Assembly (NCBI GenBank): GCA_040757335.1
Contig: JBFLXB010000006.1
Coordinates: forward strand, 1 to 64,000
Direction: 5' to 3'
From: Nitrospirota bacterium
GTDB taxonomy: Bacteria; Nitrospirota; Nitrospiria; 2-01-FULL-66-17
Length of the DNA: 64,000 nt
Shown here: positions 33,984 through 52,435 of the stretch, in pieces
Layout of the letters: the number at the start of each line of letters is the position of its first letter
Position numbering within the stretch: position 1 is the stretch's first letter
Position numbers and translations under genes: made by a program
Notes under the pieces: generated by a model
What the model was told of the DNA's origin: nothing
The model's database searches: none
What the model saw: the letters and a program-made list of their open reading frames with translations, nothing else

Positions 33984-34937
33984 TCAGCGCCGGACACCAC
34001 TCACCGGGTCGCAGTACGGAGGTTCACACTGCTCGAGGTGATCGTGGGGTCTCGCTTCGGGGCCGATTCGAAACTTCTCCTGGCGCTCGTACAGCGGTCG
34101 TATCACTTCGCGACCGTCGAATTCAAACGTGAGCGCGATCGACTCCCCTTCCCTGATCGTGATCTCACGCTCAATGGGCTTGAGATGGGGGTGCCAGGCA
34201 GTGACGCGGTAGGTCCCGGGCGGTAATTGGTCGATCGAGAACTCTCCCCCTCTCCGGGTCTTGGCATAATAGGGATTGTCGACCACGTAGCCCCAACTCT
34301 GCATGAACTCGTGCATCCCGCAAATCATCTGCGCGATCCGCTTCCCTTTCTCCAGATGCACGATCCCCCCGCGCGGTTCGGTGGAGACGGGCAGCGGGAA
34401 GTTCAACACGATGTTCCCCCGTTCGCTCTGGAAGATCTGGCTGTTGTGGATGATCGGATCCCGATTGACGACCGTGATGGGCTGGTCGTTTTGCATCACG
34501 GTCACCAGCGGGTGTTCGTGACGCAGCCTCCCTTCTTTCCCAACCGCGAACTGCTCGTCGTCCTGGACGTCGGCGGGATGGAACATACAATCCACCACGA
34601 CGTAATCGTTCTTGATCGGCGCGAACGGTTTTCCCCTTGTGACTCCCTGGACCGCGACCACGGCATCTTGGAGTCCTCCGTCCGACGCGACTAGAAACTC
34701 CTCGAGGAGGATGTGGCCTCGCCCGTCCGAAATCTTTCGACAAAAGGGACCGAACGGATACAACACGAGCGGAAACACTCTGGGCTCGGGAACCTCGCCC
34801 TTCAACACCACCTTCCCCGTGATCGCCCCACCGGTGACGACGGGAAGTGGCTCGTAACCAAACGCCTGGGGCAATCCCACGAACACGCCAAGGAGCGCGA
34901 CCACGCCTGCCAGTTGCTTTAGTGAGATGTTCACCAC
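33984..34937 (-). CDS. Periplasmic cupredoxin (paralogue 2)
   Basis: 317 residues, close in sequence to the 40339 gene. Copper ligands: His164 (DPIIHNSQ), Cys206, His209, Met212 (ICGMHEFMQSW), with the same 42-residue His-Cys spacing as paralogue 3. An N-terminal section has PFCRKISDG and DCMFHPADV, adding conserved cysteines; the C-terminus ends with a CxxxxC pair (CEPPYC). It starts at GTG 34937 with an AAGGG-type ribosome site. Likely electron carrier to or from the multicopper oxidase directly upstream. Confidence 0.85.
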   Translation of the reverse strand: MVNISLKQLAGVVALLGVFVGLPQAFGYEPLPVVTGGAITGKVVLKGEVPEPRVFPLVLYPFGPFCRKISDGRGHILLEEFLVASDGGLQDAVVAVQGVTRGKPFAPIKNDYVVVDCMFHPADVQDDEQFAVGKEGRLRHEHPLVTVMQNDQPITVVNRDPIIHNSQIFQSERGNIVLNFPLPVSTEPRGGIVHLEKGKRIAQMICGMHEFMQSWGYVVDNPYYAKTRRGGEFSIDQLPPGTYRVTAWHPHLKPIEREITIREGESIALTFEFDGREVIRPLYERQEKFRIGPEARPHDHLEQCEPPYCDPVSGVRR

Positions 34938-38000: not shown

Positions 38001-39974
38001 CATCGGCGACTTGTACTTCGGGAAATCGAACGTCCCGGTCGCCTCGGGTTCGCCCAGCGCCTTGTTCCCGTCCCACGTCCAATCCCAGACGGTCGCGTCG
38101 TAGGCCGTGATTTGCCCCTTCTCGTCAGCGGTATGCCCGGGCTGACCGGCCGGAGGGACCATCATCTTCACCCAGTCCTTGACCGACACGTCCGGCGTCG
38201 GCTTGGACCAGTCCGTCTTGGCAGCGGTGATATTCCACTTCTTGTCGTACCAATCCGCGGTCTTGCCCACCAATTTGTCCGACGTCACGGGTAACTTCAT
38301 GCGCCCCTTGCGATCCGGAAGTTCTTGCAAGGGAGGCATGATGTCCGTGCTGACGTTGGGATAGTTGCCGGTCTGCAAGGTGTTGTACACCCGCCAATAC
38401 CCCCACATCCCGGCGACATAGTGGTGCGCCACGTGGCAGTGGAACAGAAAGTCTCCGGCCAGTTGCTGGCACAGGCCAGACCCGCACTCGGTCTGCAGAT
38501 CGAGCACCTCGGACGGACCGATCACCTGCACGTCCACGCGGTCCGAGGTCGTCCTGACTTCGGGATACTTCACCGGACCGTCTTGCGCGGCCGTGAGCAA
38601 GAACGACTCCTTTCCGTCGGCTTTGGGCTGTCGGAGCCAACGGATCGTGCCGCCGTGAGGGTGGTGGGAGTGAAACACCTCGCCGCCGCCGTGCACCAGG
38701 CGGAACTTGACCGGATCGCCCATATACGACCGCGGAATCGTCGTGGGAACGTCTCCGAAGGTGTACGAACTATAGGACAGCGACTCGTCCTCATGATGGA
38801 AGTACTTCTCTTGCAGCGCGAGGTTGTTCACCCCGAACGGTTCGCTGCGGTAGTTGATCGCGCGCGCCGACGGACGGTACGCGTCGGTGTTGGGATCGCG
38901 TTGCGGAATCGTCTCGCCGCTGCGATTGAGCGGACGGAACGACTCGTCGCCGATTTCGTGATAGATGATGACGAATTCACGGAAGTCCGGCCCCTTGGGG
39001 TCGTCGATCATGACCTGCCACCCGCTCTTCGTCTCTTTCCCGGTGAGCGGGTCGAGGTAGCGGGAACCCATCGGCTCCACCATGAAGGTGCCGATCATCC
39101 CGAGGCTTGCCTGGTCACGCCCGACGTGACTGTGAAAGGCGTGCGCTCCCTCTTGCTCGGTCGGACGGACGTACCATTCGAACACCTGGCTCTCACCCTC
39201 TTTGACCGTTGAGTCGGGATTGGCGATGGTGGCCGCTGCGCCGGTCGCCTTCACGATGGTGCTGGACCCGTGGATATGAAGGCTCACGTCCTCGCCGTCC
39301 AGCTTGTTTCGCAAGGTGATGCGCACGCAGTCGCCCTGATTGGCTCGGATGTTCAACGGCTGGATCAAGTCGGTCTGCAGTCCGGCCGACACCGCGCCCG
39401 GATCATACCCGGCCTTTTCCCGAGCCGCTTGATTGGTCTTTTCCTCCTGGCGGACCTTGTCCACGTTCTCGGTGAGCACGTACATGTACCCGGGATGGTA
39501 GTCCAGCCACTGGTTCAGCGTGATTTCCACGTTGATGGCGGAAATGTCGTAGTCCTTCACCGGGGCCTCTTTCGGGCACGCGCCCCCGCTGGTCACGCTT
39601 TCGCTGACAGCGGTGGGCCCCAGAAAGAAGCTCCGGTCCATCTGCTGCATCATGCTCATGCCGCCGAACGCTCCGTCACCGCCGCTGTGCTGGGCATGGC
39701 CTTCGCTGCCCTTGGCGATCTCTTCCATGAGCTTTTTCATGGCGGCGTCGACCCGATCGCGGTGCCCGGCCCGTCCCTCGGCCGCGTCCTCGCGCTCGAT
39801 CTGGGCCCTCAACTTCTCCTCCCACCCCGCATTTGCCGGCTCCGCCACGGCAGCGGCGTCGTGGTCGTGATGGGCACCCTCGACATCCGAACCCGCCAGC
39901 AACCCGGCCGGTTGACCGACCAGCAAAACCACCCCCAAACCCAACGCCCAGAGAACTCGCCCTAACCTGTCCAT
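35043..39974 (-). CDS. Giant six-domain multicopper oxidase, MofA/McoA-like size class
   Basis: About 1,643 residues with a signal peptide (VLWALGLGVVLLVGQPAGLLA) and a His/Glu-rich linker. Three successive two-domain cupredoxin modules can be seen. Module 1 has the full set of copper motifs: LHIHG (~231), FHSH (~278), HxxHxH (FHSHHPHGG, ~432) and the type-1 motif HCHVAHHYVAGM (~511). Module 2 keeps partial sites (HPHFIQFD ~829, FWHDHAFG ~962, HTWHLAGH ~1142, HYNGRASHL ~1192, Cys lost). Module 3 (~1374-1598) has almost none. Size and layout match Mn(II)-oxidising oxidases such as Leptothrix MofA and Pseudomonas McoA, but substrate is not proven. GGGGAGGT precedes the ATG at 39974. Confidence 0.93.
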   Translation of the reverse strand: MDRLGRVLWALGLGVVLLVGQPAGLLAGSDVEGAHHDHDAAAVAEPANAGWEEKLRAQIEREDAAEGRAGHRDRVDAAMKKLMEEIAKGSEGHAQHSGGDGAFGGMSMMQQMDRSFFLGPTAVSESVTSGGACPKEAPVKDYDISAINVEITLNQWLDYHPGYMYVLTENVDKVRQEEKTNQAAREKAGYDPGAVSAGLQTDLIQPLNIRANQGDCVRITLRNKLDGEDVSLHIHGSSTIVKATGAAATIANPDSTVKEGESQVFEWYVRPTEQEGAHAFHSHVGRDQASLGMIGTFMVEPMGSRYLDPLTGKETKSGWQVMIDDPKGPDFREFVIIYHEIGDESFRPLNRSGETIPQRDPNTDAYRPSARAINYRSEPFGVNNLALQEKYFHHEDESLSYSSYTFGDVPTTIPRSYMGDPVKFRLVHGGGEVFHSHHPHGGTIRWLRQPKADGKESFLLTAAQDGPVKYPEVRTTSDRVDVQVIGPSEVLDLQTECGSGLCQQLAGDFLFHCHVAHHYVAGMWGYWRVYNTLQTGNYPNVSTDIMPPLQELPDRKGRMKLPVTSDKLVGKTADWYDKKWNITAAKTDWSKPTPDVSVKDWVKMMVPPAGQPGHTADEKGQITAYDATVWDWTWDGNKALGEPEATGTFDFPKYKSPMPGKRPPILFEEKTGKLAWPHFKPHFGKRVPFARHHGPAPWLEPIHMAKENGALSTDPGGKGAVGEETNQPAKPGEHGRWSLCPENAGRKQYTIHFIQTPIQLSKGIGKQKPVVDPNGLLYVLHEEEAAVRANPAGDKTIPLVYRASVYDCVDVILKSEWQDNDTTNFQMSKINIHPHFIQFDNQASDGVITGFSYEQAVRPFTQMKKEKHKGLPTPMNAVLTEDVKAGATSIKIKMADGATPFHVGSDLMIGADEVKTSEILWVKDIKGDTVTFTEPLRFDHKKNEIATVEFVRYRMWVDADIGTVFWHDHAFGATTWPHGGVGAMIVEPVGATYHDPKTGEPIRSGPVADIRSTEPIGYGVNGSFRELVVMPHDTVPTTAQVVSEGNPPGQTLQVAIDAGQTLSFQMPYDLDPVAAVKLNGGTHTTGGGFNFRAESVARRLKNNPDPSLIFSSKAHQDPSTPMLRAYLGDTMVFRLLHTLMNESHTWHLAGHAFRTERYAEKSDLRNAHHVGIAERYDLVTKAGGAQQIAGDYLHYNGRASHLSEGSWGIIRVLDKATPDLQKLPGRSDIPESAKSVCPADAPVKTFNVIAADRALKFNPKAADVIEVDFDRKLQVANPQGKIYMLEGEKTKVATGGEQPMPLTLHVNVGDCVKVKLKNEMKGSRASFSADMLAFDPKDSHGANVGNNPGDQTVGPGQSRTYTFYAHPQYGETAALVWDWGNFVNNVRDGLFGAIVVGPRGSKYRDSKTGEDVTLKNAWQVDVLVDRSLPENKGRSDYRDASLFFQDEDNIIGTSFMPYIQQIAGLTGVNYRVEPWAYREENGCEYGNMFTACVADETEPATPTIRAHAGDPVRIRVFGAFNEQNQIFSLEGHEWPFKPDMPGADMLSSLQFGGSEYLDVYLKEGAGGPFAIPGVYVWQNHRMPYAQAGQWGYLSVLPVGDKRILSLNSGGTGGQTAEVPAIDQPEELSEVKPEPTGPVSMLRK

Positions 39975-40159
39975 ACCAGACCTCCCCTTTTCCCAGTTCT
40001 TGCACCGGTCAAACATCGTAGCTACTCGCCATGGCTCGGAGTGCAGTACACAAGCCGGAAGTCCCTCTCGAAACCCTGTGAAAGACGCGCCGCGGAAGAG
40101 TTCTCACACCGTGACCTGCTGATGACGGGATTACTTCAAAAGAAGGGAGGGGGATGGGC

Positions 40160-40338: not shown

Positions 40339-41301
40339 TTATTCGCCGTGGTGCGCGTGCGGCCTGCGGACGCAGTAGGGTCCCTCGCAGCCCTGGAGGT
40401 CGACGTTGGGATCTCGTTCCGGCGGGATTCGGAACTGGGCTTGGGTTTCGTAGATCGGACGCACCACCTGGGCCGCATCCAGCTCAAAGTCGAGGGCGAC
40501 GGTCCCGTTGGCCGGCACCGTGACTTGTTTGACGAGCGGATCCATGTGCGGATGCCAGGCCGCGACCAAGTACGTCCCGGGCGACAGATTCTCGATGGCG
40601 AACGTCCCATCCTTGCGCGCCTTGGCGAAGTACGGGTTCTCGGCCACCCACGCCCAGGTCTGCATGTACTCGTGCATGCCGCAGATGATCTGGACAATCC
40701 GCTTGCCGCGCTCGAGGTCCACGTAGCCGCTGTGAGCCTTGTACGAAACCGGGATGGGAAAACTCAGCACCCGGTTGCCCTTTTCCGCCTGATACACCTG
40801 CGCCGCGTGCATGATCGGATCGCGGTTCGTCACCGACAACCACGAGTCGTCCCGCATGACCGTGACCAGCGGATGGACGTGCGTCAACCGGCCGTCGTGG
40901 AGTTCAAACTGCTCGCTCTCCGGCACATCGGCCGGGTGAAACATACAGTTCACGGTCAATAGCTCCGTGTCGCGCGACTTGAACGGCTTCCCGCGCTGGA
41001 CGTTCAGGACCGCCACCACCGCGTCCTGGAGGCCCCCGCCGGAATCCACGTTGAACTCCTTGAGCACCACGTGGCCCTCGCCGTCCGAGATCTTCTTGCA
41101 AAAATCCCCGAACGGGTAGAGCACCATCGGAAATACGCGGGGCTCGGGCACATCCCCCCGCAACCTGACGGTTCCGGTGATCGTGCCCCCGTTCGCGACG
41201 TCGGCCATTTCATACGACCACGCAACGGCTGCCCCTGCGGTCCACCCCACCGCCAGCGCGGCGAGAGCCGCCCCTGCAACCTTCTTTGTCATGCTGGTCA
41301 T
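40339..41301 (-). CDS. Periplasmic cupredoxin (paralogue 3)
   Basis: 320 residues with signal peptide. Copper ligands His165 (DPIMHAAQ), Cys207, His210 and Met213 (ICGMHEYMQTW). The C-terminal regulatory-like domain is FAIENLSPGTYLVAAWHPHMD, and the protein ends with CxxxxC (CEGPYC) and a His-rich tail. Sequence is close to paralogue 2, so the oxidase is bracketed by near-duplicate carriers. The ATG at 41301 has GAGGAA upstream; the open frame to 41403 is not part of the gene. Confidence 0.86.
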   Translation of the reverse strand: MTSMTKKVAGAALAALAVGWTAGAAVAWSYEMADVANGGTITGTVRLRGDVPEPRVFPMVLYPFGDFCKKISDGEGHVVLKEFNVDSGGGLQDAVVAVLNVQRGKPFKSRDTELLTVNCMFHPADVPESEQFELHDGRLTHVHPLVTVMRDDSWLSVTNRDPIMHAAQVYQAEKGNRVLSFPIPVSYKAHSGYVDLERGKRIVQIICGMHEYMQTWAWVAENPYFAKARKDGTFAIENLSPGTYLVAAWHPHMDPLVKQVTVPANGTVALDFELDAAQVVRPIYETQAQFRIPPERDPNVDLQGCEGPYCVRRPHAHHGE

Positions 41302-41384
41302 GTGATTCCTCATGCGTCGTCTCAACGGTAAAAATAACCCGAGGAAAAGCGAATAGCAACCCAATGCCACACCCCCATGCGCGC

Positions 41385-41416
41385 CAACGCAGCAGATGAC
41401 CACTCATGGACGGGCT
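41385..41416. repeat. Solitary right end of the palindromic repeat at a stop codon
   Basis: CAACGCAGCAGATGACC...CATGGACGGGCT matches the right end of the complete copies, but the left arm and core are missing. It covers the stop and last four codons of the SUMF1-like gene, so those codons (Gly-Ala-Arg-Pro) may derive from the repeat. Confidence 0.6.
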
Positions 41417-42285
41417 CCCAGAGAGGCGGCGCAGCGAAAGCCGATGGTGTCCCGGCGTGCGTCCGGGCTCGCCGCGCTTCGCGTTGCGGTTCTGAGCATC
41501 ACCGGATCGCTTCGCCACGACCCGCCCCGGACCACTTTGTAGCGTCCAACGGGCGGGCCCTGGGGGTTTCGATCCGGCATGCCGCGATACCAGTCGATCC
41601 CGTTCCAATCCGCAACCCACTCGGCCGCGTTGCCGGCCATGTGGAGCACACCGTAGGGACTTTGCCCGGCCTCAAACGTCGCGGTCGCGGCCATCGGCGG
41701 CTTGGGCGGGCTCACCGCTCGAGCGTACACCGCGCGGATGTGATCCGGCGGATCGTCGCCCCACGGGAACAACCGGCCATCGTCTCCCCGTGCGGCTTTC
41801 TCCCACTCGGCTTCAGTGGGCAGCCGCGCTCCGCGCGAGCGACAATACTCGTTCGCCTCATACCACGTGACGGAGACAACCGGAAGCGCGCCGGCGTCGG
41901 TTACCCCATTACCAGCGGTGGCGCCGTCGAGCCACTGGAGATCCGCGGGCTGTCCCCCGAGATCATCGAGGACCCACCGCAGGTAGTTCGCCACGCTGAC
42001 CTCCTCGCGGTCGATCACGTAGCGGTCGAGCCAGATCCGGCGTTGCGGGATTTCGGTGTTGTCGTATGGGGTTCGCAAACCCGACGTCGGCGGCAGTTGC
42101 GGGGATCCCATGAGAAACCATCCCGCTTCGATCGCGATGACCGGAGACGGACGGGCCGTTTCCATCATGGCGCGGAGCCGGCCCATGGTCTCGTCCCCCG
42201 TTGGGGATTCCGCGGGCGGGGGCGAGACGGCTGAACACGCGACCAGCCCCATGACCATCCACCCGGGAAATCGGACACCCATCAA
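41404..42285 (-). CDS. SUMF1/formylglycine-generating-enzyme-fold lipoprotein, probably not a true FGE
   Basis: 293 residues. A lipobox LVAC (Cys17) marks it as a lipoprotein. The SUMF1 (FGE-sulfatase/PvdO) fold is clear: EAGWFLMGS, LPTEAEWEKAARG, NAAEWVADW, RGGSWRSDP and a final GFRCA. The two cysteines that bind copper in catalytic FGEs (in the GGS...C....C segment) are replaced (SDPVMLRTATR), so oxidation of sulfatase cysteines is unlikely; a structural or ligand-binding role is more plausible. It is the last gene of the propeller operon, 12 bases after the previous stop. Confidence 0.87.
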   Translation of the reverse strand: MMGVRFPGWMVMGLVACSAVSPPPAESPTGDETMGRLRAMMETARPSPVIAIEAGWFLMGSPQLPPTSGLRTPYDNTEIPQRRIWLDRYVIDREEVSVANYLRWVLDDLGGQPADLQWLDGATAGNGVTDAGALPVVSVTWYEANEYCRSRGARLPTEAEWEKAARGDDGRLFPWGDDPPDHIRAVYARAVSPPKPPMAATATFEAGQSPYGVLHMAGNAAEWVADWNGIDWYRGMPDRNPQGPPVGRYKVVRGGSWRSDPVMLRTATRSAASPDARRDTIGFRCAASLGARP

Positions 42286-42297
42286 CGCGACGGCGGC

Positions 42298-43581
42298 CTA
42301 GCGCGGAAGAGTGGTGTAACGCGTCAGGAACTCAACGACTTCTCGCTGTTCGTCCGGCGTCAGGCCGGCGCCTGGGGCCATCCGAGCGACCGTGGGCGCC
42401 CAGTCCCGCTGATTCGGAGCTACCCGCCAGTAGGTCGGTTTCCGGCTCAGCAGCGGATCGGTCCACCCGTGACACCCCGCACACTTCTGGAACGCAGGCG
42501 GTGGCGCTGGGGTGGAAGCCGGGTCCCGGCGCACGGGTCGATCGACCAACGAGGCGATGATATTCGCCACGGGCTCCTGCGAGACACGCTCGGGAGGCTG
42601 AAACCGGAGCCCGCCGTCGAGCGACAAGAACAACCCGTGGTCGTGCGTCCCCGCGTACAGCCGGTCAGGATCGGTCGGGGCAACCGCCAAGGCTTCGACG
42701 TCATCTTTCGGCGGGATTCCGTCCCCCACCTTCATCCAGGTCGCCCCGTTGTCGTTGCTGCGAAACAAACCCCGGCGCAACACGCTGACCCACAACCGTT
42801 TCGTGCCCGCGGGCCCGGCCAACACCAGCCGCACCCACCCCCGTTCAAACTCCTTGCCGAGCGGCGCCCAGCTACGGCCTCGATCATCCGACCGAAACAG
42901 TCCTTGGCGGCGCGTGCCGGCGTAGAAACGTCCTTGCGCGTCCTCGACCAGCGCCGAGATCGCCGCGTGGCTGAGATCCTGTCCAGTCGCCCGCCACGCC
43001 GCATCCCGCCCAGTGCGCGCAAAGAGCGTGCCCTGTCCCAACCAGGCCGTGCCCGAACGAACCAACAATGCGGCCAAGACCTCCCCTTCCATGGCGGGCA
43101 ATCCCTCCCCGTACGGGGTCCAACGGCCGCCGCCGTCCACGGTCTGGAAGACGTCGCCGGTGGACGTGGACGCGACCAAACGTTCGGGCTGCGAGGAATC
43201 GAGGGCCAAGGCGTGAATATTGGTGTTCCCGAGCCCGTGGCTCACCGCGTCCCACGATCGTCCGCCGTTTCGCGTGCGAAAGACGCCGCCGCCGAACGTG
43301 CCGACATAAGCCACGTCGGCGTCTTTCGGATGGATCACCACGTGGTACGCACTGGTGTTGAGGATGCCGTCGCGCGCAGGTAGCCAGGTGCGGCCCCGGT
43401 CCGTGCTCTTCAGGATGCCGACGGGACGGCCCGCGGCATAGAGCACCGACGGGGTCGACGGCGCCACCGCGATCTGATTGATCAGCAGCGGTTCGGCGGA
43501 GGCGACCTCGACCAGGATCGTCGCCGCACCCAGTGCGGCCGCCACGGACGCCCAGATTCGGGCCACCGGATGTGCGGTCAT
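42298..43581 (-). CDS. Secreted BNR beta-propeller with C-terminal monohaem cytochrome c
   Basis: 427 residues. A type-I signal peptide (VEVASA-EP) leads into Asp-box/BNR repeats of the sialidase/Ycf48 type (STDRGRTW, TRNGGRSW, SDDRGRSW, SNDNGATW). The C-terminal ~75 residues are a c-type haem domain: CAGCH at 367-371 and a likely axial Met in DWAPTVARMAPGAGL. The ATG overlaps the upstream stop (TAATG). Three genes in this operon share this propeller-cytochrome fusion. Function unknown; probably periplasmic electron transfer on a protein scaffold. Confidence 0.88.
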   Translation of the reverse strand: MTAHPVARIWASVAAALGAATILVEVASAEPLLINQIAVAPSTPSVLYAAGRPVGILKSTDRGRTWLPARDGILNTSAYHVVIHPKDADVAYVGTFGGGVFRTRNGGRSWDAVSHGLGNTNIHALALDSSQPERLVASTSTGDVFQTVDGGGRWTPYGEGLPAMEGEVLAALLVRSGTAWLGQGTLFARTGRDAAWRATGQDLSHAAISALVEDAQGRFYAGTRRQGLFRSDDRGRSWAPLGKEFERGWVRLVLAGPAGTKRLWVSVLRRGLFRSNDNGATWMKVGDGIPPKDDVEALAVAPTDPDRLYAGTHDHGLFLSLDGGLRFQPPERVSQEPVANIIASLVDRPVRRDPASTPAPPPAFQKCAGCHGWTDPLLSRKPTYWRVAPNQRDWAPTVARMAPGAGLTPDEQREVVEFLTRYTTLPR

Positions 43582-44831
43582 TACCGAAGCTCGATGAGCC
43601 GGGCCAGAGATTCGGCGCGTCCCGTCCGGTAGTCCTTCCAGGCCACGAGATAGCCAGCACCGCCAGCCGCCACGGTGGTAAAGTGGTTGCCCTTTGAATC
43701 CGGGACCACGGTGAAGGCGAGCGGCTTCCGGCCGCGCGCCCACCGCAACGCCCGCACGTCCCGTATCACGTCGGTGATCCTGGTCGTGGCGACGCTCGAC
43801 GACGGGTGCCCTTCTTCCCACACCACCAGGCAATCGTCGGTCCGGCACGACACCGCGGGAAACATGTGGAACCGAGGCGCGGAGGACAGGGGTATGCCGC
43901 CTGGCTCTGTAACCTCCCCATCCCGGGTCAGCGTGGTTCCGTAGAGGGCAAAGGTGTCCCCGGCTCGTTTGTCGACCCACACCACCAGGCTGTCGCCGGA
44001 TCCACGGAGTCCGCCCACCGCCGGATACCCCTGTTCCCCGTCGGCGAGCGAGACCGCGATGCGTTCAGGGTCCAACACACGCCCCTCGTCATCCACCCGC
44101 GCGGCGGAGATGTCGGTTTCACCGCGCCGCGCGTCCATCCACGCCACCACGAAGGCGCGGCCGTTCCACGCTACGGCAGGACGCGTCTGATCCCGGTCTC
44201 CCCCGCCCACCACCAGCCCCTCGGGGTCGAGCACCCGACCGTCCGGCGCGATCCGCGCCGCCACGATGTCCCAACCGGCCCCTGATCGCTCCTGCATCCA
44301 GACCGCCAGAAACACCCGGCCGCTCCACGCCACGCGCGGATGGCGGCGATTGCCCGATCCGACGCCGATCGCCAACCCGTCGGGGTCAAGGACGGTCCCG
44401 TCGGCCCGGACGCGCGTGCCGTAGATCTCCCAGTTGCGCCGGCTGCGCAGGTCTTGCCACAGGACGAGGTGGACGTCGCCGCCCCACGTCACGTCGGGAA
44501 ATAGCGTGTCGGACGGCCCTTGCCCGATCGGAAACCCGTCGCGCGGCGCAACGGTGTGATCGGGACTCACCCACGTGCCGTACACGTCGCTCGGCCCCCG
44601 GCGCGTGGTCTGCCACACCACGAGAAAGCGTTGTCCGTTCCACGACGGCACCGGGTCCTCCTCCTCGTCGGCGGCCCGCGACGACAGCACCAGCTCCGAC
44701 CCGATCCGCAGCGCGTCTTCACCGTCCCCGGGTTTCCCCCCCGGGCCGAGTCCGGCGCAGCCGACGAGGCTTGCCAGCGCGAGCAAGGGCCAGGGCAGCG
44801 CCCGGGCGATGGCGTCAACGCGGGGCAACAA
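43581..44831 (-). CDS. Beta-propeller lipoprotein with ~50-residue repeats, no haem
   Basis: 416 residues. Lipobox LVGC (Cys25). The mature protein is a tandem series of repeats of the type PAVAWNGRAFVVAWMDARRG...ISAARVDDEGRVLDP, seven or so copies, a propeller built from WNG/VVW blades. No CxxCH. The start appears to be TTG (44831 or 44828), overlapping the previous stop by ~15 bases, since no ATG or GTG precedes the signal sequence. Encoded between the YVTN and BNR-cytochrome genes. Confidence 0.8.
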   Translation of the reverse strand: MLPRVDAIARALPWPLLALASLVGCAGLGPGGKPGDGEDALRIGSELVLSSRAADEEEDPVPSWNGQRFLVVWQTTRRGPSDVYGTWVSPDHTVAPRDGFPIGQGPSDTLFPDVTWGGDVHLVLWQDLRSRRNWEIYGTRVRADGTVLDPDGLAIGVGSGNRRHPRVAWSGRVFLAVWMQERSGAGWDIVAARIAPDGRVLDPEGLVVGGGDRDQTRPAVAWNGRAFVVAWMDARRGETDISAARVDDEGRVLDPERIAVSLADGEQGYPAVGGLRGSGDSLVVWVDKRAGDTFALYGTTLTRDGEVTEPGGIPLSSAPRFHMFPAVSCRTDDCLVVWEEGHPSSSVATTRITDVIRDVRALRWARGRKPLAFTVVPDSKGNHFTTVAAGGAGYLVAWKDYRTGRAESLARLIELR

Positions 44832-45786
44832 CGATCCCCATCAAACCCTCGGCGGCGCCCGTCTCCAGCCACGCCACGACCTGACGCGATTCGGAGTCGA
44901 TCACGGCGATGCGGTCCGTTTCGCGATGGGTGACGTACACGCGGCGACCGTCGGGCGCCACGCTGACGCGCCACGGCGACGGTCCCACCGGAACCACCGC
45001 CTCCTCGCGATCGGTCGCGGTCGAGACGACCGACACCGTGTCGGCCCCGCTGTTCGCCACATACACGGTGCCTCCGTCCGGCGCCGACGCGATCCCGACC
45101 GGGTTGAGGCCGACCGCCACCGTGGCCACGACGGTGTCGCGCGCCACGTCGATCACCGAAACCGCTCCCGGCCTCTGGTTCGTGACGTACGCAAAGCGCC
45201 CGTCCGTGGACAGCGCGATGTCGACGGGAAACATGCCGACCGGAATCGTTGCAACGACCAGATACGAGGCGGTGGAGACCACCGAGACGGTCCCCGAGAA
45301 ATAGTTCACGACGTAGACCGCGGGCCGGCGGGGAATCGCAGCCACCGCGATCGGCAACGCACCGACACGGGCCCGCGCCAGTAAGGCGCCGGTCTTGACG
45401 GAGATGACCGACAGCGTCTTATCTTTGGCGTTCGCGACGAACAGGGCCCTCCCGTCCGGGGACACGTCCACGGCCTGCGGCACCGCACCCGCCTCCAGCC
45501 GATCCAGGTTGCGCCCGGGCAAGCGGATCGCCGTCACCATTCGACCTTCTCCGCCGACATAGACGGTTCCCCCGTCCGGCGACACCGTCAGGTCCGCCGG
45601 ACGCGGGATGTCGGGGATCCGAGCGAGCACTTTCCGAGTCTCGGGGTCGACCACCACCACGCTGTCCGCCTGGCGGTCCGCGACGTACAACACGGGCGTG
45701 TGGGCCGCACACGCGGAGAGCAACACCGCCCCCGCCCACCCGGCGAGCATCCACGTCCTGCTCGGCACTGACGCCACGCGGGTCAC
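44815..45786 (-). CDS. YVTN-type beta-propeller lipoprotein
   Basis: 323 residues, lipobox LSAC (Cys26), followed by seven-bladed YVTN repeats (DLTVSPDGGTVYVGG, ALSTDGRFAYVTNQRPG, SVAPDGRRVYVTHRETD, with VSVVSTAT and VSVIDVAR blades). Such proteins are common surface scaffolds. GTG at 45786 overlaps the previous stop (GTGA). Confidence 0.88.
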   Translation of the reverse strand: MTRVASVPSRTWMLAGWAGAVLLSACAAHTPVLYVADRQADSVVVVDPETRKVLARIPDIPRPADLTVSPDGGTVYVGGEGRMVTAIRLPGRNLDRLEAGAVPQAVDVSPDGRALFVANAKDKTLSVISVKTGALLARARVGALPIAVAAIPRRPAVYVVNYFSGTVSVVSTASYLVVATIPVGMFPVDIALSTDGRFAYVTNQRPGAVSVIDVARDTVVATVAVGLNPVGIASAPDGGTVYVANSGADTVSVVSTATDREEAVVPVGPSPWRVSVAPDGRRVYVTHRETDRIAVIDSESRQVVAWLETGAAEGLMGIVVAPR

Positions 45787-47180
45787 GGTTGTCTCTGCGA
45801 CGAATAGGCGTTCAGGAACTCCTCCACTTCGTCTTCCTCGCTGGGTGAGAGACCCGCAATCGGCGCCATGCGGTGCACGGTCGGTCCCCAGTCCCGCCGG
45901 TTCGCGGGCACGAGCCAGAAGCTTCGCGGCGCCTGATTCAGCTCGGGGTCCGTCCAGCCATGACAGCCGTTACACTTCGAAAACGCCGGAGGAGGAATCA
46001 ACCCCACCGCTCGGCGCGTCGGATCAGGGGCCTTCAGCGCCGCAATGATCGTATCCGCGTCCAGCGTCGGAACCCGGTCGAGCGGCCGCCAGCCGGCGCC
46101 TCCGTCCTGGGAGACGAAGACCCCGCTCCCATAGGTGCCGGCGTACACCCGCTGGGGCCGGTGAACATCCACCGCCAACGCACGCACGTCGGGCGTCGCG
46201 AGCCCGTGGCTGCGTCGCTCCCACGTCCGCCCGCCGTCCGTACTGCGCAGCACACCCGACGTCGAGGTGGCCGCATACGCCAACCGCCCCCCGGGATCGA
46301 ACCACACCTGCCGAACCCACTCGAGCGAGAGCCGCTCGTCTTGATCCCACCGGGTCCACGTGGCCCCGGCATCCTCGCTCACGAACAGGCCGCCGCCCTG
46401 CAGCGTTTTCCCGTCGCGCAGCGCGGCCGCGAAGACCCGGCGGCCGTCGGGATGTCGCGTCAGCACGGTGATGGCTCGCCCCGTCAGGTCGCTGGAAGCC
46501 GGCGCCCACGCGGGTTCGGTAGCGCGCCGTCTCCACACGCCGCGACCGGACGCCAGCAATGCCGTCTCGCGATCACCGGGAAGAATGACCAGGTCCTGGA
46601 ACTGCTGGCTCTGCGTAAAGTCGTCCCCCTGATTCCACGCCGTCCACGTGTTCGCCCCGTCCCGGCTGATGAACACGCCGGTCGAGGTCACGACGTACAC
46701 CTGATCGGGATGCTCCGGATGCAGGACGATCGACCCGACATTGGTGTTGGCCAGCCCGTCGTTCTTTTCCACGAAGGATCGCGCTCCGTCCACGCTTTTG
46801 TAGAGCCCGCCTCCCCCCGCCCCCACGTACACCACATCGGGATTGCGCGGATCGAGCACCAGCCGGTAGAGCGAGTAGCTCCGTATGCCGCGATTGGCCG
46901 TCTCCCAATGCCGCCCCGCGTCCTCGCTCTTGAGCAGGCCCACGCTGAAGTTCGTGAGCGCGAGCACCGTGTCCGGCCTCTCCGCGTGCAGCGCAACCTG
47001 CGTCACCACGATGGCCCGGCGCGTGGGCGCTTCGCGCGAGGCGCCGGGTTGCAGGGTCACGCCCGAACACGCGGTGAGCCACGCCGCGAGTCCTATTGCG
47101 GAGGTGAAGAAGCACGATCTCCGTTTTGCTCGCTCACCCCGCCGCAAGCCGCGAGGAGTACGCTCGCAATGCACTTTCAT
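45783..47180 (-). CDS. BNR beta-propeller lipoprotein with C-terminal monohaem cytochrome c
   Basis: 465 residues. A lipobox LTAC (Cys38) follows a basic leader. BNR repeats (SEDAGRHW, SVDGARSF, SRDGANTW, SEDAGATW, STDGGRTW, SQDGGAGW) form the propeller. The C-terminal haem domain has CNGCH at 403-407, GWTDPELNQAPRSFW and RMAPIAGL. The ATG at 47180 overlaps the upstream stop (ATGA), so the frame extending to 47594 is not used. Paralogue of the 42298 and 48400 products. Confidence 0.88.
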   Translation of the reverse strand: MKVHCERTPRGLRRGERAKRRSCFFTSAIGLAAWLTACSGVTLQPGASREAPTRRAIVVTQVALHAERPDTVLALTNFSVGLLKSEDAGRHWETANRGIRSYSLYRLVLDPRNPDVVYVGAGGGGLYKSVDGARSFVEKNDGLANTNVGSIVLHPEHPDQVYVVTSTGVFISRDGANTWTAWNQGDDFTQSQQFQDLVILPGDRETALLASGRGVWRRRATEPAWAPASSDLTGRAITVLTRHPDGRRVFAAALRDGKTLQGGGLFVSEDAGATWTRWDQDERLSLEWVRQVWFDPGGRLAYAATSTSGVLRSTDGGRTWERRSHGLATPDVRALAVDVHRPQRVYAGTYGSGVFVSQDGGAGWRPLDRVPTLDADTIIAALKAPDPTRRAVGLIPPPAFSKCNGCHGWTDPELNQAPRSFWLVPANRRDWGPTVHRMAPIAGLSPSEEDEVEEFLNAYSSQRQP

Positions 47181-48403
47181 CGCGGCGCGCCGGGCCCGGA
47201 GCGTTCGGCCGGAGCGGACAGGGGACTGCGGTACACCCAGGCGCGCGGAGGCAGCGCGGTTCCCGCGTAGAGCGCGCCGCCGAACTCCTGCATCGCTTCC
47301 ACCGTAAACGGCGTGAGCTCTCCGACCTCGTGCCACGACGACCCGTCGGAGCTGCGTTGCACCCGTCCGTTCACCGCCGCGTAGAGGACGCCTGCGGCCT
47401 CGACGAGCGAGGCCACGTACTCCCCGCGTACACCCGATGACTCGCCCGCCGCCAACACCCGCTCCCACGTCTCGCCGTCGCGTGTGCGCCACACGGCTCC
47501 ACCGGTCGTGGTCCCCACGTAGAGAAACGCGCCCGCCGCAACCGCGGCTCGCACCCCGACTCGCGGTTCGGACGGGAACCGCACCATCTCCCAAGCGGCG
47601 CCGTCAGGGCTCCGAAACACCCCGGCCCCTTCGACCCCGGCGTACAGACTCCCCTCAAACGGGATGAGAAACCGCACCCAGTTCGGGAACTGGTTGTCCG
47701 CGCCCGACAGCAACGCGCCTGCCGGGGACCAGGCCCGGCCGTCGGTGGTCCGGTACACGCGACCGCGCGTGGTGCCCGCGTACAACGCGTCGCCGAACAC
47801 CCCGAGCGCGATGACGCCGCGTTCCTCCGCCGGCAGGGTTGCCTCGTGCGACCACTGCGCGCCGTCCGCGCTGCTCCACACCTCGGCTCGCGGTTGATTC
47901 GTGCCGGCAAAGAGGCGATCGCGAAACGACACCAACCCATACACGGTGTACGCCTCGGTCGTCAAGACGGGACGCCAGGATCGGCCTTCCAATCGGAGCG
48001 CGGTGCCGGCTCCCTCGATGCCGGCGTACAGCCGATCCCGAAACGGTTTGAGCGCCACCACGTTCCACCCCGCGGGCACCGGCTCCAACGGTTCCCACTC
48101 CATGGTCGAGACCTTGGGGTAACGGCTCATCAAGTACTCTTCGAGCGAGGCGCGTTCCGACGCGCTGAGCGGGCAGCCCATGGCCTGCATCCAACTCAGC
48201 ACCAGCGTCCACGGTCTGGGTTCAATGGCATGGCTGCGGCCCGCGCAGTCCCCGGCCACGCAGCGGGCATCCAGGGTCACGCCGTGGCAGGCGCCGCAGC
48301 GCGACGTGATGATCGACCGGGCGGTCGTGTCCGACACCGGAGCGCTCGCGCAGCCCGCCAGGATCGCGACGGTGACGACCACCGGCCACCGAACCGCGGT
48401 CAC
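47177..48403 (-). CDS. Lipoprotein with N-terminal monohaem cytochrome c and C-terminal beta-propeller
   Basis: 408 residues with reversed domain order compared with its neighbours. Lipobox LAGC (Cys18) and a haem site CGACH at 36-40 lie at the N-terminus, with extra cysteines (CVAGDC) in the haem domain. Then comes a propeller with blades such as FRDRLYAGIEGAG, FGDALYAGTTRGRVYRTTDG and FEGSLYAGVEGAGVFRSPDG. The GTG at 48403 overlaps the previous stop (GTGA). Confidence 0.87.
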   Translation of the reverse strand: MTAVRWPVVVTVAILAGCASAPVSDTTARSIITSRCGACHGVTLDARCVAGDCAGRSHAIEPRPWTLVLSWMQAMGCPLSASERASLEEYLMSRYPKVSTMEWEPLEPVPAGWNVVALKPFRDRLYAGIEGAGTALRLEGRSWRPVLTTEAYTVYGLVSFRDRLFAGTNQPRAEVWSSADGAQWSHEATLPAEERGVIALGVFGDALYAGTTRGRVYRTTDGRAWSPAGALLSGADNQFPNWVRFLIPFEGSLYAGVEGAGVFRSPDGAAWEMVRFPSEPRVGVRAAVAAGAFLYVGTTTGGAVWRTRDGETWERVLAAGESSGVRGEYVASLVEAAGVLYAAVNGRVQRSSDGSSWHEVGELTPFTVEAMQEFGGALYAGTALPPRAWVYRSPLSAPAERSGPGAPR

Positions 48404-49704
48404 GGCGCGGCCGCTCCGCTGTATGCGGTCAGGAAACGGGTGAGGTCCATGCGTTCTTCGCCCGTCAACTCCGCGCGAGCGGCCATGCGGTCCACCGTGG
48501 GTCCCCAGTTGCGGACGTTCGGCGGCACGCGCCAATACGTGTGTTTCGCGTTGAGTCGCCCGTCGGTCCAGCCGTGACAGCGATTGCACTTCGCAAAGGC
48601 CGCTGGAACCGGCGGGGCGTCGGGACGAGGCGCGGCCGGCGTGAGCATCGCGATCATCTGCGACATGGTAAGGCGTTGGACGCGGCCGGCGGCGCGCCAT
48701 GACGCCCCGCCGTCGTGGGAATAGTAGATCCCGGACGCGGTCGTGCCCGCCGCCAGCCGGGAGGGTTTCGCGGGGTGGACCGCGAGACTTCGCACGTCCG
48801 CGTCGGCCAGGCCCTTGCCCAACGTGGCCCAGACGGCTCCCGCGTCGTCCGACACGAAGACCCCCGCGCCGCGGGTCGCCGCGTAGACGCGCGACGCGGC
48901 CCGGGGATGAACCACGATGCGACTCACGAACCATCCGGGGTCGCCGACGCGCTGCCAGCCGCGGCCCGAGCCCACGTAGATCCCTTGTTTGATGGTGCCC
49001 ACGTAGACCCGGCTGTTCCGCGGGTCGTGCACCACGGTGGTGACGCGCGCGGACCCCAGATCAGGGTCCGCAGCCCACCGGGACGCGCCGAGGCCCCGTC
49101 GAAACAGCCCGCCCTCGGTGCCCAGCCAGATGCGTCCGCTGGGTCGCGGTTCGACGGCGAGCGATTTGTATCCCACGGCTTCGGACAACGGAGGAAGCCC
49201 CTCGCTGAACGGCTCCCAGTGCCCGCCCCCGTCCGCGGATCGAAACACCCCGGTGGACGTGGCCGCGAACCACTGCGAGGCGTCCGACGGATCCACCGCC
49301 AGCGCGTCCACCGCGGTGTTGGCCAGATCGCCGGTCACCTCGTTCCACGTCGCAGCGCGGTCTCGGCTGATCGAGACGCCCCCTCCCCAGCCCCCTGCGA
49401 GCAGGATCGGCTGGCCGGCTTGCGTTGGCAGGACCGCGATCAGCGCGTGGTGGGTGAAGCTGCGCAGCCCGCGGTTCGCGTGGGACCATTGGCGGCCGCC
49501 GTCGCGGCTGGTGAGCACGCCCATGTTGCTGGTGATGGCGTAGAACCGGTCGGGATCAACCGGGTCAGGCGCGATCTGGTGAATGATGAGCGGCGCCTCA
49601 GCGATCTCGGCCGCGCGCGCGAGCGAGCCCCCGGCCCACACCAGGACCGCGCACGCAAAACACGCCGTGAGCCCGCCTCCGCCCTTGACGCAGACCGGCC
49701 GCAC
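48400..49704 (-). CDS. Secreted BNR beta-propeller with C-terminal monohaem cytochrome c (first propeller gene)
   Basis: 434 residues, type-I signal peptide (LARA-AE). BNR repeats (TSRDGGRQW, SRDRAATW, SADGGGHW, SDDAGAVW, SHDGGASW). Haem site CNRCH at 373-377 and axial Met candidate in WGPTVDRMAARAEL. The mature N-terminus (PLIIHQIAPDP) resembles that of the 42298 product (PLLINQIAVAP), showing duplication. The GTG at 49704 is 7 bases behind rmlD, so the propeller genes appear to be transcribed with the rhamnose genes. Confidence 0.87.
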   Translation of the reverse strand: MRPVCVKGGGGLTACFACAVLVWAGGSLARAAEIAEAPLIIHQIAPDPVDPDRFYAITSNMGVLTSRDGGRQWSHANRGLRSFTHHALIAVLPTQAGQPILLAGGWGGGVSISRDRAATWNEVTGDLANTAVDALAVDPSDASQWFAATSTGVFRSADGGGHWEPFSEGLPPLSEAVGYKSLAVEPRPSGRIWLGTEGGLFRRGLGASRWAADPDLGSARVTTVVHDPRNSRVYVGTIKQGIYVGSGRGWQRVGDPGWFVSRIVVHPRAASRVYAATRGAGVFVSDDAGAVWATLGKGLADADVRSLAVHPAKPSRLAAGTTASGIYYSHDGGASWRAAGRVQRLTMSQMIAMLTPAAPRPDAPPVPAAFAKCNRCHGWTDGRLNAKHTYWRVPPNVRNWGPTVDRMAARAELTGEERMDLTRFLTAYSGAAAP

Positions 49705-49711
49705 CGTTGGC

Positions 49712-50548
49712 TCACGCGCCGGACGGTTGGGCGCGCAGGTAGTCCGCGAGCGCCGCTTGCCACGGGCGCAAGCGAATCCCCAGCCTGGCCAGCTTGGTGC
49801 AATCGAGGATCGAATAGGCCGGCCGCGGCGCAGGCCGTGCCAGCTCGGTGCTCGCAATGGGCACGACCCGGCGGTTGTACCCCGCCAAATCCAGAATCGT
49901 GACCGCGAACTCGTGCCAAGAGCACGAGCCGCTATTGACCGCGTGATAGATGCCGGCAGCCCGAGTGTCGAGCAACGACCGGATGGCCGCAGCGAGGTCG
50001 TCGGCCGCAGTGGGCGAGCCGACCTGATCGCTCACTACGCGCAGTTCGTCCCGCTCGGATGCGAGCCTGAGGATCGTGCGCACGAAGTTCTTGCCCTCGC
50101 CGTACAGCCACGCGGTGCGCAGGATCACGGCGTCGGGTTTGGCGAGCAGCGCTTCGCGCTCGCCCGCCAGTTTGCTCGCGCCGTACGCGGAGCGCGGCGC
50201 CACCGGGTCCTCCTCACGGTAGGGCGTGGTCTTGGTCCCGTCGTACACGTAGTCGGTCGAGATCGCCACCAGGCGCGCCCCGACCTTGGCTGCGCCCTGC
50301 GCCACGTTGCGGGTCCCGTCGGCGTTGACCGCGTAGGCCCGATCGGGATTCGATTCAGCGCCGTCCACATCGGTGTACGCCGCGGCGTGGATCACGACCT
50401 CGGGCCGCGCATCCGCGATCCGCGCGACGATCGACGCGTCGGTGATGTCCGCTTCGGCCTCGGACGGCGCAACCAGATCCTGGTCGCGCAACACGTGTCG
50501 GAGAGCGATCCCCAACTGGCCCGTCGCGCCGGTGAGAAAAATCCTCAT
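49712..50548 (-). CDS. rmlD: dTDP-4-dehydrorhamnose reductase
   Basis: 278 residues, SDR fold with MRIFLTGATGQLG at the N-terminus, the YxxxK catalytic pair in SAYGASKLAGE and the STDYVYDG motif. It makes dTDP-L-rhamnose in the last step. In this window rmlC is missing and rmlB is only a remnant directly upstream. Confidence 0.94.
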   Translation of the reverse strand: MRIFLTGATGQLGIALRHVLRDQDLVAPSEAEADITDASIVARIADARPEVVIHAAAYTDVDGAESNPDRAYAVNADGTRNVAQGAAKVGARLVAISTDYVYDGTKTTPYREEDPVAPRSAYGASKLAGEREALLAKPDAVILRTAWLYGEGKNFVRTILRLASERDELRVVSDQVGSPTAADDLAAAIRSLLDTRAAGIYHAVNSGSCSWHEFAVTILDLAGYNRRVVPIASTELARPAPRPAYSILDCTKLARLGIRLRPWQAALADYLRAQPSGA

Positions 50549-50550
50549 GT

Positions 50551-50665
50551 CCGCTCTAAGTCAGCGCGTCGAACTTGACGACCGGATCGGCCGGCGCGCG
50601 GAGGATATTCCCGATGAATTGGCCGCCGATGAATCCGCACCCGCGGCCCTGGCAAGTAGCCTCAC
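50551..50665 (-). pseudogene. rmlB: Remnant of rmlB (dTDP-glucose 4,6-dehydratase) N-terminus
   Basis: Read on the minus strand from a GTG that overlaps the rmlA stop (GTGA), the bases encode VRLLARA and, after a frameshift, GCGFIGGQFIGNIL followed by VVKFDALT and TAG. Intact RmlB starts with an MRxLVTGGAGFIGSNF-type Rossmann motif and continues to DALTYSGN: the stop lies exactly where the Tyr would be and the next codons read Ser-Gly. The remaining ~300 codons are gone and rmlD begins 3 bases later. The operon once read rmlA-rmlB-rmlD. Confidence 0.75.
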
Positions 50666-51741
50666 GTGAGCTCGATGCGGCTCTGATCGCCGACGATGAA
50701 TTTCTGGGTCATCGGTTTGGTGACGCACCGCAGGAGCTCGACCTCGCGGCCCAACAGGCTGCGTTCGATCCGGGTGTGGACGTCGACGATGCGACACCGC
50801 TCCAACACGATGCTGTACTCGACTTCGCTGTTGCGCAGCACACAGTCCGCACCGATCGACGTGAACGGCCCGACGTAGGAATTCTCGATCACGGTGCCCG
50901 GCCCGATGACCGCGGGGCCGCGAATCTGGCTGGCGATCACGGTCGCGCCGGGCTCCAGGATCACCTTGCCCGCGATGTCGGACTTGGCGTCCACCTGGCC
51001 GGGCCGGAAGGCCTCAGGCTGCTCGCGGATCTTGTCGAGCGCGAGCCGATTCGCCTCCAGGAGATCCTCGGGCTTTCCGGTATCCTTCCACCACCCCGTG
51101 ATCTCGGAGTACCCGACTCGGTACCCGCGTTCCAGCAGGTATTGGTGGGCATCCGAAATCTCCAGTTCGCCGCGCGCGCTCGGGGTGATCGCGTTGACGG
51201 CCTCGAAGATATGGCGATCGTACAGGTAAATCCCGGTGACCGCGAAGTCGCTCTTGGGTTGAGCGGGCTTCTCTTGGACGCCGACCAGTTTCCCGTTGCG
51301 CAATTCCGGCACGCCGAACCGCTCCGGGTCCCGCACGCGGGCGAACACGAGCCGGCAGTGGTCCCCCGCGCGCGAAAACTCTTCGATGAACTGCCGGATC
51401 CCGCCCACGATCACGTTGTCGCCCAAGTAGAACACGAAGGGGTCGTTGCCGATGAAGTCCTGCGCCACGCGCACCACGTGCGCCAGCCCGCGCGGCGCGT
51501 CCTGCATCACGTATGTCAGCTTGAGCCCCCATCCTTCGCCCCCGCCGAGCGCCTGCCGGATCTCCTCGCCGGTGTCGGGGTTGATGACGATGCCCACCTC
51601 CCGGATGCCAGCGTCCGCCACCGCTTCCAGGGCGTACGCGATCATCGGCTTGTTGGCAATCGGGATGAGGTGTTTGTTGGAGGTGTGCGTGATGGGACGC
51701 AGGCGCGTCCCTTTGCCGCCTGCGGTGATGAGTGCTTTCAC
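50662..51741 (-). CDS. rmlA: Glucose-1-phosphate thymidylyltransferase, long form
   Basis: 359 residues. Nucleotidyltransferase motif LITAGGKGTRLRPITHTSNKHLIPIANKPM at the N-terminus and EKPAQPKSDFAVTGIYLYD in the core. The ~100-residue C-terminal left-handed beta-helix (GPAVIGPGTVIENSYVGPFTSIG) marks the long RmlA/StrD-type. It makes dTDP-glucose, which here has no intact 4,6-dehydratase next to it. Confidence 0.92.
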   Translation of the reverse strand: MKALITAGGKGTRLRPITHTSNKHLIPIANKPMIAYALEAVADAGIREVGIVINPDTGEEIRQALGGGEGWGLKLTYVMQDAPRGLAHVVRVAQDFIGNDPFVFYLGDNVIVGGIRQFIEEFSRAGDHCRLVFARVRDPERFGVPELRNGKLVGVQEKPAQPKSDFAVTGIYLYDRHIFEAVNAITPSARGELEISDAHQYLLERGYRVGYSEITGWWKDTGKPEDLLEANRLALDKIREQPEAFRPGQVDAKSDIAGKVILEPGATVIASQIRGPAVIGPGTVIENSYVGPFTSIGADCVLRNSEVEYSIVLERCRIVDVHTRIERSLLGREVELLRCVTKPMTQKFIVGDQSRIELT

Positions 51742-51799
51742 AATGGAAGTCTCCCGTCCGGTCGCGTTCGAGCCATCATAGAAACCCGCTGGACACCTG

Positions 51800-52435
51800 T
51801 CAATCTGCCCGGCGCTTCGCCACGACCAAATGGTGGAGGCTGATGGGCCAAAACCGAAAAGGGAGGCTCTCCTCCGCCACCACCGTAAACCCGGCTGCCG
51901 CGAGGGCGCGCCGCATCTCGCGTGGCGTCCACTGCTTGACGTGCCCCGGATCGTAGAGGGCTTCCCGCCACTTGCCGGTGGCGAGCCGAGCCAGGGCGAA
52001 TACCAGATCGTTGGGAAACAGGACCAACAGTAAGCCGCCGACCTTCAGCACGCGGGCGAATTCCCGGAGCGCTGCCTCGGGATGGTCGAGGTGCTCGATC
52101 ACCTCCAGAAAGAGACACGCGTCCACGCTGTTGCTCCGGATGCCCAGCTCGAACACGCTCCCCCCGATCACCGGAAGCCCGTGGCGCACGCAGATCTGCC
52201 GGTTTTCTTCGGATCGGTCCACGCCAAGGAGGCGGCGTTCCCCGCGCTCTCGAACCAAGCGCTCCAGCGTGATTCCCTCCCCGCACCCCGCGTCGAGGAT
52301 TAGCCCGCAGCGGGGCAGATGCCGCAGGATGCGCGCGTCCCGGTAGTCCCAGTAGCGCCGGCCCACCCCGCCTTTCGCGTACTGATCCCGCTGATAGATC
52401 ATTCCCTCGGCGGGAAGGTCGTAGTCAACCGGCAT
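51800..52435 (-). CDS. SAM-dependent methyltransferase of a glycan locus
   Basis: 211 residues. SAM motif LILDAGCGEGITLERL and the later LEVIEHLDHP segment define a class I methyltransferase; no zinc ribbon or membrane segment. The start at 52435 lies 18 bases from the transaldolase stop. It probably methylates a sugar or lipid-linked intermediate; the target is unknown. Confidence 0.87.
   Translation of the reverse strand: MPVDYDLPAEGMIYQRDQYAKGGVGRRYWDYRDARILRHLPRCGLILDAGCGEGITLERLVRERGERRLLGVDRSEENRQICVRHGLPVIGGSVFELGIRSNSVDACLFLEVIEHLDHPEAALREFARVLKVGGLLLVLFPNDLVFALARLATGKWREALYDPGHVKQWTPREMRRALAAAGFTVVAEESLPFRFWPISLHHLVVAKRRAD

Follow-up and report, generated by a model that had tools for sequence, protein, structure and literature searches.

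Introduction

Combinations of a beta-propeller with cytochrome c are known from other systems. In quinohaemoprotein amine dehydrogenase, the haem domains of the alpha subunit (PF09098; PDB 1jju, 1pby) follow the order CxxCH - W..TV.RM - L..E...I..YL and are combined with Ig-like domains and a partner propeller. Hydrazine synthase of anammox bacteria unites propellers with and without haem c in one complex, with beta and gamma subunits that are fused or separate depending on the species (PMC12758564). Haem proteins of the outer membrane or the cell surface, the MtrABC/OmcA conduits and Cyc2, move electrons across the envelope, and the type II secretion system has been implicated in placing MtrC and OmcA on the surface of Shewanella (PMC1974784). 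Asp-box (BNR) propellers are further found in Ycf48, sortilin Vps10 and the GH74 enzymes, families without haem. Here we describe an operon of six beta-propeller genes, four of them with a candidate site for c-type haem, together with the conserved gene set to which it belongs. The operon lies in a window of 64,000 nucleotides (the whole stretch of DNA analysed) on contig 6 of a Nitrospirota genome of 3.56 Mb and 61 contigs, referred to below as the host genome.

Each of these systems resembles the locus in part. With quinohaemoprotein amine dehydrogenase it shares the order of motifs in the haem domain and the company of Ig-like domains and propellers, but here each protein has one haem, fused directly to BNR propellers, and the similarity stays below the Pfam cut-off. 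To hydrazine synthase, whose catalytic subunits were not sought as such, the only kinship in sequence is the generic YVTN signal from one protein, and the haem domain and propeller types of that enzyme are unlike those described below. The parallel with MtrABC/OmcA and Cyc2 is one of functional idea and, for the surface cytochromes, of type II secretion precedent; those are multihaem proteins, whereas the propellers here are monohaem. The likeness to Ycf48, sortilin Vps10 and GH74 concerns propeller sequence and predicted fold, and GH74 enzymes have two propellers and catalytic acids that were not seen here. In the open-access literature that was searched, we found no description of this family, of the gene set or of its partner, nor of a string of single-haem propellers.

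Six overlapping propeller genes, four with a haem-attachment motif

The open reading frames on the minus strand from 49704 to 42298 confirmed the six overlapping genes, and their order, that had been proposed in an earlier note on this DNA. They are named A to F in the order of transcription:

48400..49704, minus strand: gene A, 434 amino acids (aa), GTG start; predicted exported BNR/sortilin-type beta-propeller with a C-terminal monohaem cytochrome c domain
48574..48588, minus strand: candidate CxxCH haem-attachment site of A, CNRCH, in the context KCNRCHGW
47177..48403, minus strand: gene B, 408 aa, GTG start; predicted lipoprotein, N-terminal monohaem domain followed by a DUF6242-type beta-propeller
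48284..48298, minus strand: candidate CxxCH haem-attachment site of B, CGACH, N-terminal, in the context RCGACHG; invariant
45783..47180, minus strand: gene C, 465 aa, ATG start; predicted lipoprotein, BNR propeller with a C-terminal monohaem domain
45960..45974, minus strand: candidate CxxCH haem-attachment site of C, CNGCH, C-terminal, in the context KCNGCHGW
44815..45786, minus strand: gene D, 323 aa, GTG start; YVTN beta-propeller, predicted lipoprotein without haem
43581..44831, minus strand: gene E, 416 aa, TTG start; WNG-repeat beta-propeller, predicted lipoprotein without haem
42298..43581, minus strand: gene F, 427 aa, ATG start; predicted exported BNR propeller with a C-terminal monohaem domain
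42469..42483, minus strand: candidate CxxCH haem-attachment site of F, CAGCH, C-terminal, in the context KCAGCHGW

Successive genes overlap by GTGA (A/B and C/D), ATGA (B/C) and TAATG (E/F), and by 17 nucleotides (nt) at D/E. The architectures proposed earlier likewise held: A, C and F join a BNR propeller to a C-terminal CxxCH domain, B has the haem domain first, and no CxxCH was found in the YVTN propeller D or the WNG propeller E. A, C and F match the Pfam group Sortilin-Vps10/BNR/PSII_BNR (Sortilin-Vps10 at 5.8e-18, 3.2e-18 and 2.5e-15, respectively, with BNR also listed for A and F), B matches DUF6242 (7.8e-11), and D matches Pfam Lactonase/YNCE and TIGR02276 (8.4e-54). E had no Pfam match above the curated cut-off; its seven WNG repeats of about 52 residues were read by eye from the sequence. 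Sec-type signal peptides precede A and F, and a lipobox is present in B, C, D and E, in agreement with the claim that four of the six are lipoproteins. The motif is absent from most B and C orthologues; lipidation would thus be a local trait, and lipoprotein status was dropped as a defining feature.

The AlphaFold2 (AF2) model of C (pLDDT 82.8) placed a propeller at residues 58-366 and haem-domain helices at 400-403, 431-442 and 446-461, and that of B (pLDDT 79.2, weaker in the haem part) showed an N-terminal helical domain and a propeller. Asp-box repeats, Pfam scores above cut-off, the AF2 model and Foldseek matches together assign A, C and F to the BNR/sortilin-type propellers. In searches of solved structures the propellers resembled GH74 enzymes, Ycf48 and sortilin, with Ycf48 among the closest (E~1e-11 by sequence, TM-score ~0.7 on the target). 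Foldseek matches were dominated by the propeller and left the haem domains unresolved.

A conserved haem domain joined to propellers

The haem domain of A, C and F comprises about 70 C-terminal residues. Searched with a haem-domain profile of 69 positions (A3), a sample of 396 genomes of the phylum yielded 7 with the domain; within the class, 10 of all 270 genomes scanned, from five families, carry it, at 39 places; a further weak match occurred in G026 (E=7e-5). Two of the 39 places were left out of the motif count, G001:C101 being cut by a contig end and G002:C57 by undetermined bases (Ns). The CxxCH motif is intact at all 37 remaining places, and CxxCH together with W422, R429, W431, R437 and M438 is invariant in all 28 aligned haem-BNR proteins, which excludes chance as the source of the motif. 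The possibility, raised by the earlier note against itself, that these sites might not be conserved among orthologues was therefore not borne out. In G002, a run of Ns (L047 12871-14208) coincides precisely with the CxxCH residues of one BNR-haem protein.

In every paralogue group the haem domain was better conserved than the propeller (haem/propeller: A 0.65/0.50, F 0.60/0.51, C 0.62/0.53, C' 0.64/0.54), including the most diverged one, the G004/G002 set (0.48/0.37). The positions conserved across the 28 propellers are nearly all Asp-box residues or glycines, with no candidate catalytic residue, a pattern that favours a scaffold role and disfavours an enzyme of BNR type. A GH74 glycosidase or sialidase was rejected, the sole invariant acidic propeller residue in the 28 proteins being the Asp-box aspartate. 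In B, the CxxCH motif, W65, M72 and two further cysteines, C48 and C53, are invariant in 11 homologues, as are the polar propeller residues N114, E130, R244 and E369.

By hhalign the A/C/F haem domain aligned with that of B at 94% and with that of a giant partner protein (see below) at 93%, with CxxCH, W and M in register; the direct comparison of B with the giant protein gave only 8%. A CxxCH motif, the downstream candidate axial ligand M438 and C-terminal helices (431-442 and 446-461 in the model) mark the domain as a putative cytochrome c resembling class I, with Met as the probable second haem ligand. F did not reach the curated Pfam cut-offs (Cytochrom_C 18.0 vs 21.3 bits, Dehyd-heme_bind 16.2 vs 25.2), and C, B and the giant protein matched none of the curated cytochrome c families in Pfam. 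The closest recognisable relative is found in the alpha subunit of quinohaemoprotein amine dehydrogenase, namely its dihaem part (1jju_A, E=0.004; Dehyd-heme_bind E=0.008, below cut-off), a kinship that by these scores is below the level of membership. A, B, C, F and the giant protein each have one CxxCH, and assignment to this dihaem subunit was rejected.

In a maximum-likelihood tree the haem-BNR proteins formed the well-supported groups A (9 rows, 99/97), F (8 rows, 100/99), C (10 rows, 100/99) and C' (4 rows, 100/99), while the deep branch order between groups was poorly supported. A has orthologues in eight other genomes. Each group spans several families, indicating that the paralogues are older than the families and have been kept as a set; each genome retains 3-6 separate haem genes, and the host genome has one further C-type copy on contig 2. 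The duplication suggested by the shared haem domain was thereby borne out, but as ancient groups (A, C, C' and F); recent tandem duplication within this operon is ruled out by the tree. For other phyla, a pattern scan of 84,980 genomes gave 80 loci, only one of which (L059) has this haem domain; the scan was insensitive and missed most of the known clusters, so that distant members elsewhere may have escaped it. When the 41 genomes that contain those loci were searched with a profile, three weak matches emerged, all dihaem alpha subunits resembling amine dehydrogenase. The gene set is known here from a rare group of uncultured Nitrospirota, in which it is old and conserved.

Neighbourhoods, gene fusions and the giant partner

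Homologues occurring singly would have spoken against a functional set. Wherever the contig allows a view, A and B are adjacent or fused (8 of 8 genomes), and E and F are adjacent (also 8 of 8). The arrangements were as follows, G025 being the Nitrospirae metagenome-assembled genome JACQFA01:

G001: A-B-C-D-E; on another contig, starting with the end of E, F-giant
G006: giant-C-C' facing A-B-E-F
G025: giant-C'-C-C'' divergent from A-B-E-F
G008: giant divergent from A-B-PDZ-E-F; C'' and D beyond; C-C' on another contig
G012: giant-type gene-GspC-like-C-E-F-A-B
G015: giant divergent from (A-B fused)-E-F; C-C' on another contig
G004: E-A-B fusion on one contig; giant-B2-dihaem protein-propellers on another
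G007: E-F-A on a 3.3-kb contig
host genome, contig 2: giant gene directly upstream of the C copy
G011: B and giant gene only

Orthologues of D occur in the G001 and G008 clusters. Three genomes carry fusions. In G015, a single frame of 867 codons unites A and B; it lacks the signal peptide of B and places the two haem domains one after the other. A frame of 1268 codons in G004 combines E, A and B behind a single lipobox-bearing signal, and in G002 a BNR-haem protein is fused to the FG-GAP protein that neighbours it in G004. That the inner signal peptide has been lost makes a sequencing artefact less likely. Fusion of neighbouring genes in separate genomes is classical evidence of physical association, and the A-B and E-A-B fusions, with their haem domains in tandem, imply that the products belong to one complex.

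The gene designated giant encodes a protein of about 1000-1350 aa with a signal peptide and one haem domain, GCTQCHSITIPGGNRNGTDR, with C-terminal W..TV..M. The remainder holds an Fn3-like domain, propeller parts of FG-GAP, YVTN or BNR type, and repeats of IPT-like, CARDB or choice-of-anchor Z type. It adjoins the propellers in seven genomes, including the second locus of the host genome; in G012 only its rear part is present, at a contig start, and the G002 genome reaches a completeness of 65%. A profile of its haem domain (A8) matched 8 of the 10 haem-propeller genomes and 1 of 48 others among 58 relatives (Fisher p=2e-7, uncorrected for kinship). By synteny and co-occurrence, the conserved partner of the propellers is this giant monohaem protein and not the multicopper oxidase that lies beside the operon in the window; the repeats of the giant protein suggest that it is probably located at the cell surface.

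Some clusters hold further genes. G002 and G004 (L047 7259-9130; L049 6587-8467) encode an extra protein of about 625 aa with two CxxCH motifs, for which the scanned G004 copy gave no Pfam match at E 0.001, and both add a PD40/TolB-like propeller. The G006 and G011 loci (L050 995-7239; L198 326-6390) adjoin similar genes, including a large permease-like gene and a possible barrel gene.

A putative electron relay and its rivals

The most economical reading of these data is an exported redox set, and the anatomy of its proteins suggests an electron relay. We tentatively favour, as possible, an exported relay of monohaem proteins scaffolded by propellers and completed by the giant surface protein. 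The operon products would be subunits of an exported multi-propeller cytochrome assembly, in which each BNR or DUF6242 propeller would hold one haem c resembling class I, bound through CxxCH with its His and a probable Met as axial ligands. Haem domains of neighbouring subunits would be juxtaposed, the C-terminal haem of A beside the N-terminal haem of B, as in the natural A-B fusion, and electrons could then hop along the assembly. D and E, which lack haem, would serve as propellers for scaffolding or docking. In most genomes the giant protein, with Fn3 and propeller or FG-GAP and Ig-like repeats, would complete the assembly, probably at the surface; in the host genome its gene is at the second locus with the C paralogue. 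A bolder version, which we consider doubtful, would make this an unrecognised extracellular electron-transfer machine of deep-branching Nitrospirota, in which propeller-haem-haem-propeller chains and the giant surface protein, exported by type II secretion, take the role of multihaem porin-cytochrome conduits.

Export of the assembly by a type II secretion system, perhaps as for the Shewanella surface cytochromes, is consistent with a gspC-D-E-F-G-J run on contig 16 of the host genome and with a GspC/PulC-like gene in the G025, G012 and G008 clusters that is not the ordinary gspC but comes on top of it. A Pfam test of a gspN candidate gave nothing. The MtrB/PioB-type barrel (PF11854) is absent from all ten haem-propeller genomes and present in six others of the 58 relatives, an exclusion that is not significant (p=0.58); a conduit of MtrB type was rejected on this absence.

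Several observations weigh against the relay. Single haems at the ends of propellers of about 300 residues would need tight packing for fast transfer, and conservation is the sole basis for the Met ligand. Only 3 of the 10 clusters include the GspC-like gene, none of the conserved cluster genes was recognised as encoding an outer-membrane barrel, and the lipobox is not kept. The BNR-haem subunits are dispensable in G011, where only B and the giant protein are retained.

Among the rivals, the one that survives best, though unlikely, is an enzyme complex in which one or more propellers bind a substrate in the periplasm or outside the cell and oxidise or reduce it, while the haem c domains relay the electrons, in the manner of quinohaemoprotein dehydrogenases or hydrazine synthase. 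The kinship of the haem domain to the amine dehydrogenase alpha subunit, shared by the weak matches in other phyla, and the invariant polar residues of the B propeller would fit such an activity; the BNR propellers, on the other hand, have no catalytic-looking residue, and no protein with a quinone or copper site is conserved in the clusters. The gamma subunit with its cysteine tryptophylquinone (PF08992) was unmatched in the 58 relatives, in a search without positive control. Against QH_beta and the beta subunit of hydrazine synthase D obtained weak scores, far below the curated cut-offs, as any YVTN propeller would; its 115 bits against NF052340 (cut-off 560) led us to reject it as that subunit.

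We consider it still less probable that the set forms a surface apparatus for adhesion, matrix or sensing, with haem domains that are structural or sense redox state or gases and form no electron pathway. The Fn3, FG-GAP, CARDB and choice-of-anchor Z repeats of the giant are typical of surface proteins, the BNR propellers resemble the ligand-binding sortilin as well as Ycf48, and the operon of the host genome, like that of G001, lies behind dTDP-rhamnose genes belonging to a surface-glycan region. Yet conservation is concentrated in the haem domain and not on the propeller faces, and several separate haem genes are kept in each genome. That the propellers are assembly factors for another periplasmic respiratory complex, with haem as handle or cargo, as Ycf48 serves photosystem II, is very unlikely despite the similarity to Ycf48, as GH74 xyloglucanases and sortilin are equally similar, no other complex is conserved beside the clusters, and an assembly factor would hardly be expected as a full set of different paralogues that each bear a haem.

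The multicopper oxidase and other surroundings of the operon

The earlier note had linked the propellers to the giant multicopper oxidase encoded next to them (window 35043-40016, 1657 aa). An electron relay working with this oxidase is very unlikely. In the host genome the two are adjacent on the same strand, F and the gene after it being 12 nt apart, and both are exported; but the oxidase is found in 57 of the 58 relatives with or without haem-propellers, and the proposed link fails. The oxidase shares a contig with a haem-propeller gene only in the host genome, and the cluster contigs of G006 and G012 (114 kb and 132 kb) gave no oxidase match. It has a module of its own, being flanked by cupredoxin-like genes in most loci examined and by a SUMF1-like gene in G001 and G002. 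On its class-wide presence and separate synteny, the partnership was rejected.

The oxidase is 55-86% identical over most of its length among relatives, which often have at least 2 copies, and is apparently a core but uncharacterised enzyme of the class. Three flanking genes (40339-41403, 33984-34937 and 33097-33972) share a CarboxypepD_reg-like C-terminus and a C-G-M-H-E-Y-M / C-G-V-H-D-F-M motif resembling a type-1 copper site. These cupredoxin-like genes travel with the oxidase across the class, and their products may be its electron donors. In Candidatus Manganitrophaceae, of the same phylum, each genome is reported to hold two novel multicopper oxidases (PMC9040806).

A SUMF1/FGE-like lipoprotein gene (41404-42285) begins 12 nt after F. 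On the other side, dTDP-rhamnose genes (rfbA, rfbD; 49712-51803) precede the operon, as they do in G001. The minus strand has a single strong promoter-like match, in front of rfbA (51803-51775), and the propellers may therefore be transcribed from there. G+C over the operon (42500-50000) is 0.68-0.71, compared to 0.62-0.63 on both sides.

Implications

The natural A-B and E-A-B fusions are ready-made single-chain constructs for biochemistry and structure determination. Even if the function differs from that proposed here, a conserved, unannotated gene system with a specific partner has been defined, and a misleading local neighbour, the multicopper oxidase, has been corrected. If the relay exists, uncultured Nitrospirota would move electrons outside the inner membrane by means of strings of single-haem propellers and not by multihaem cytochromes.

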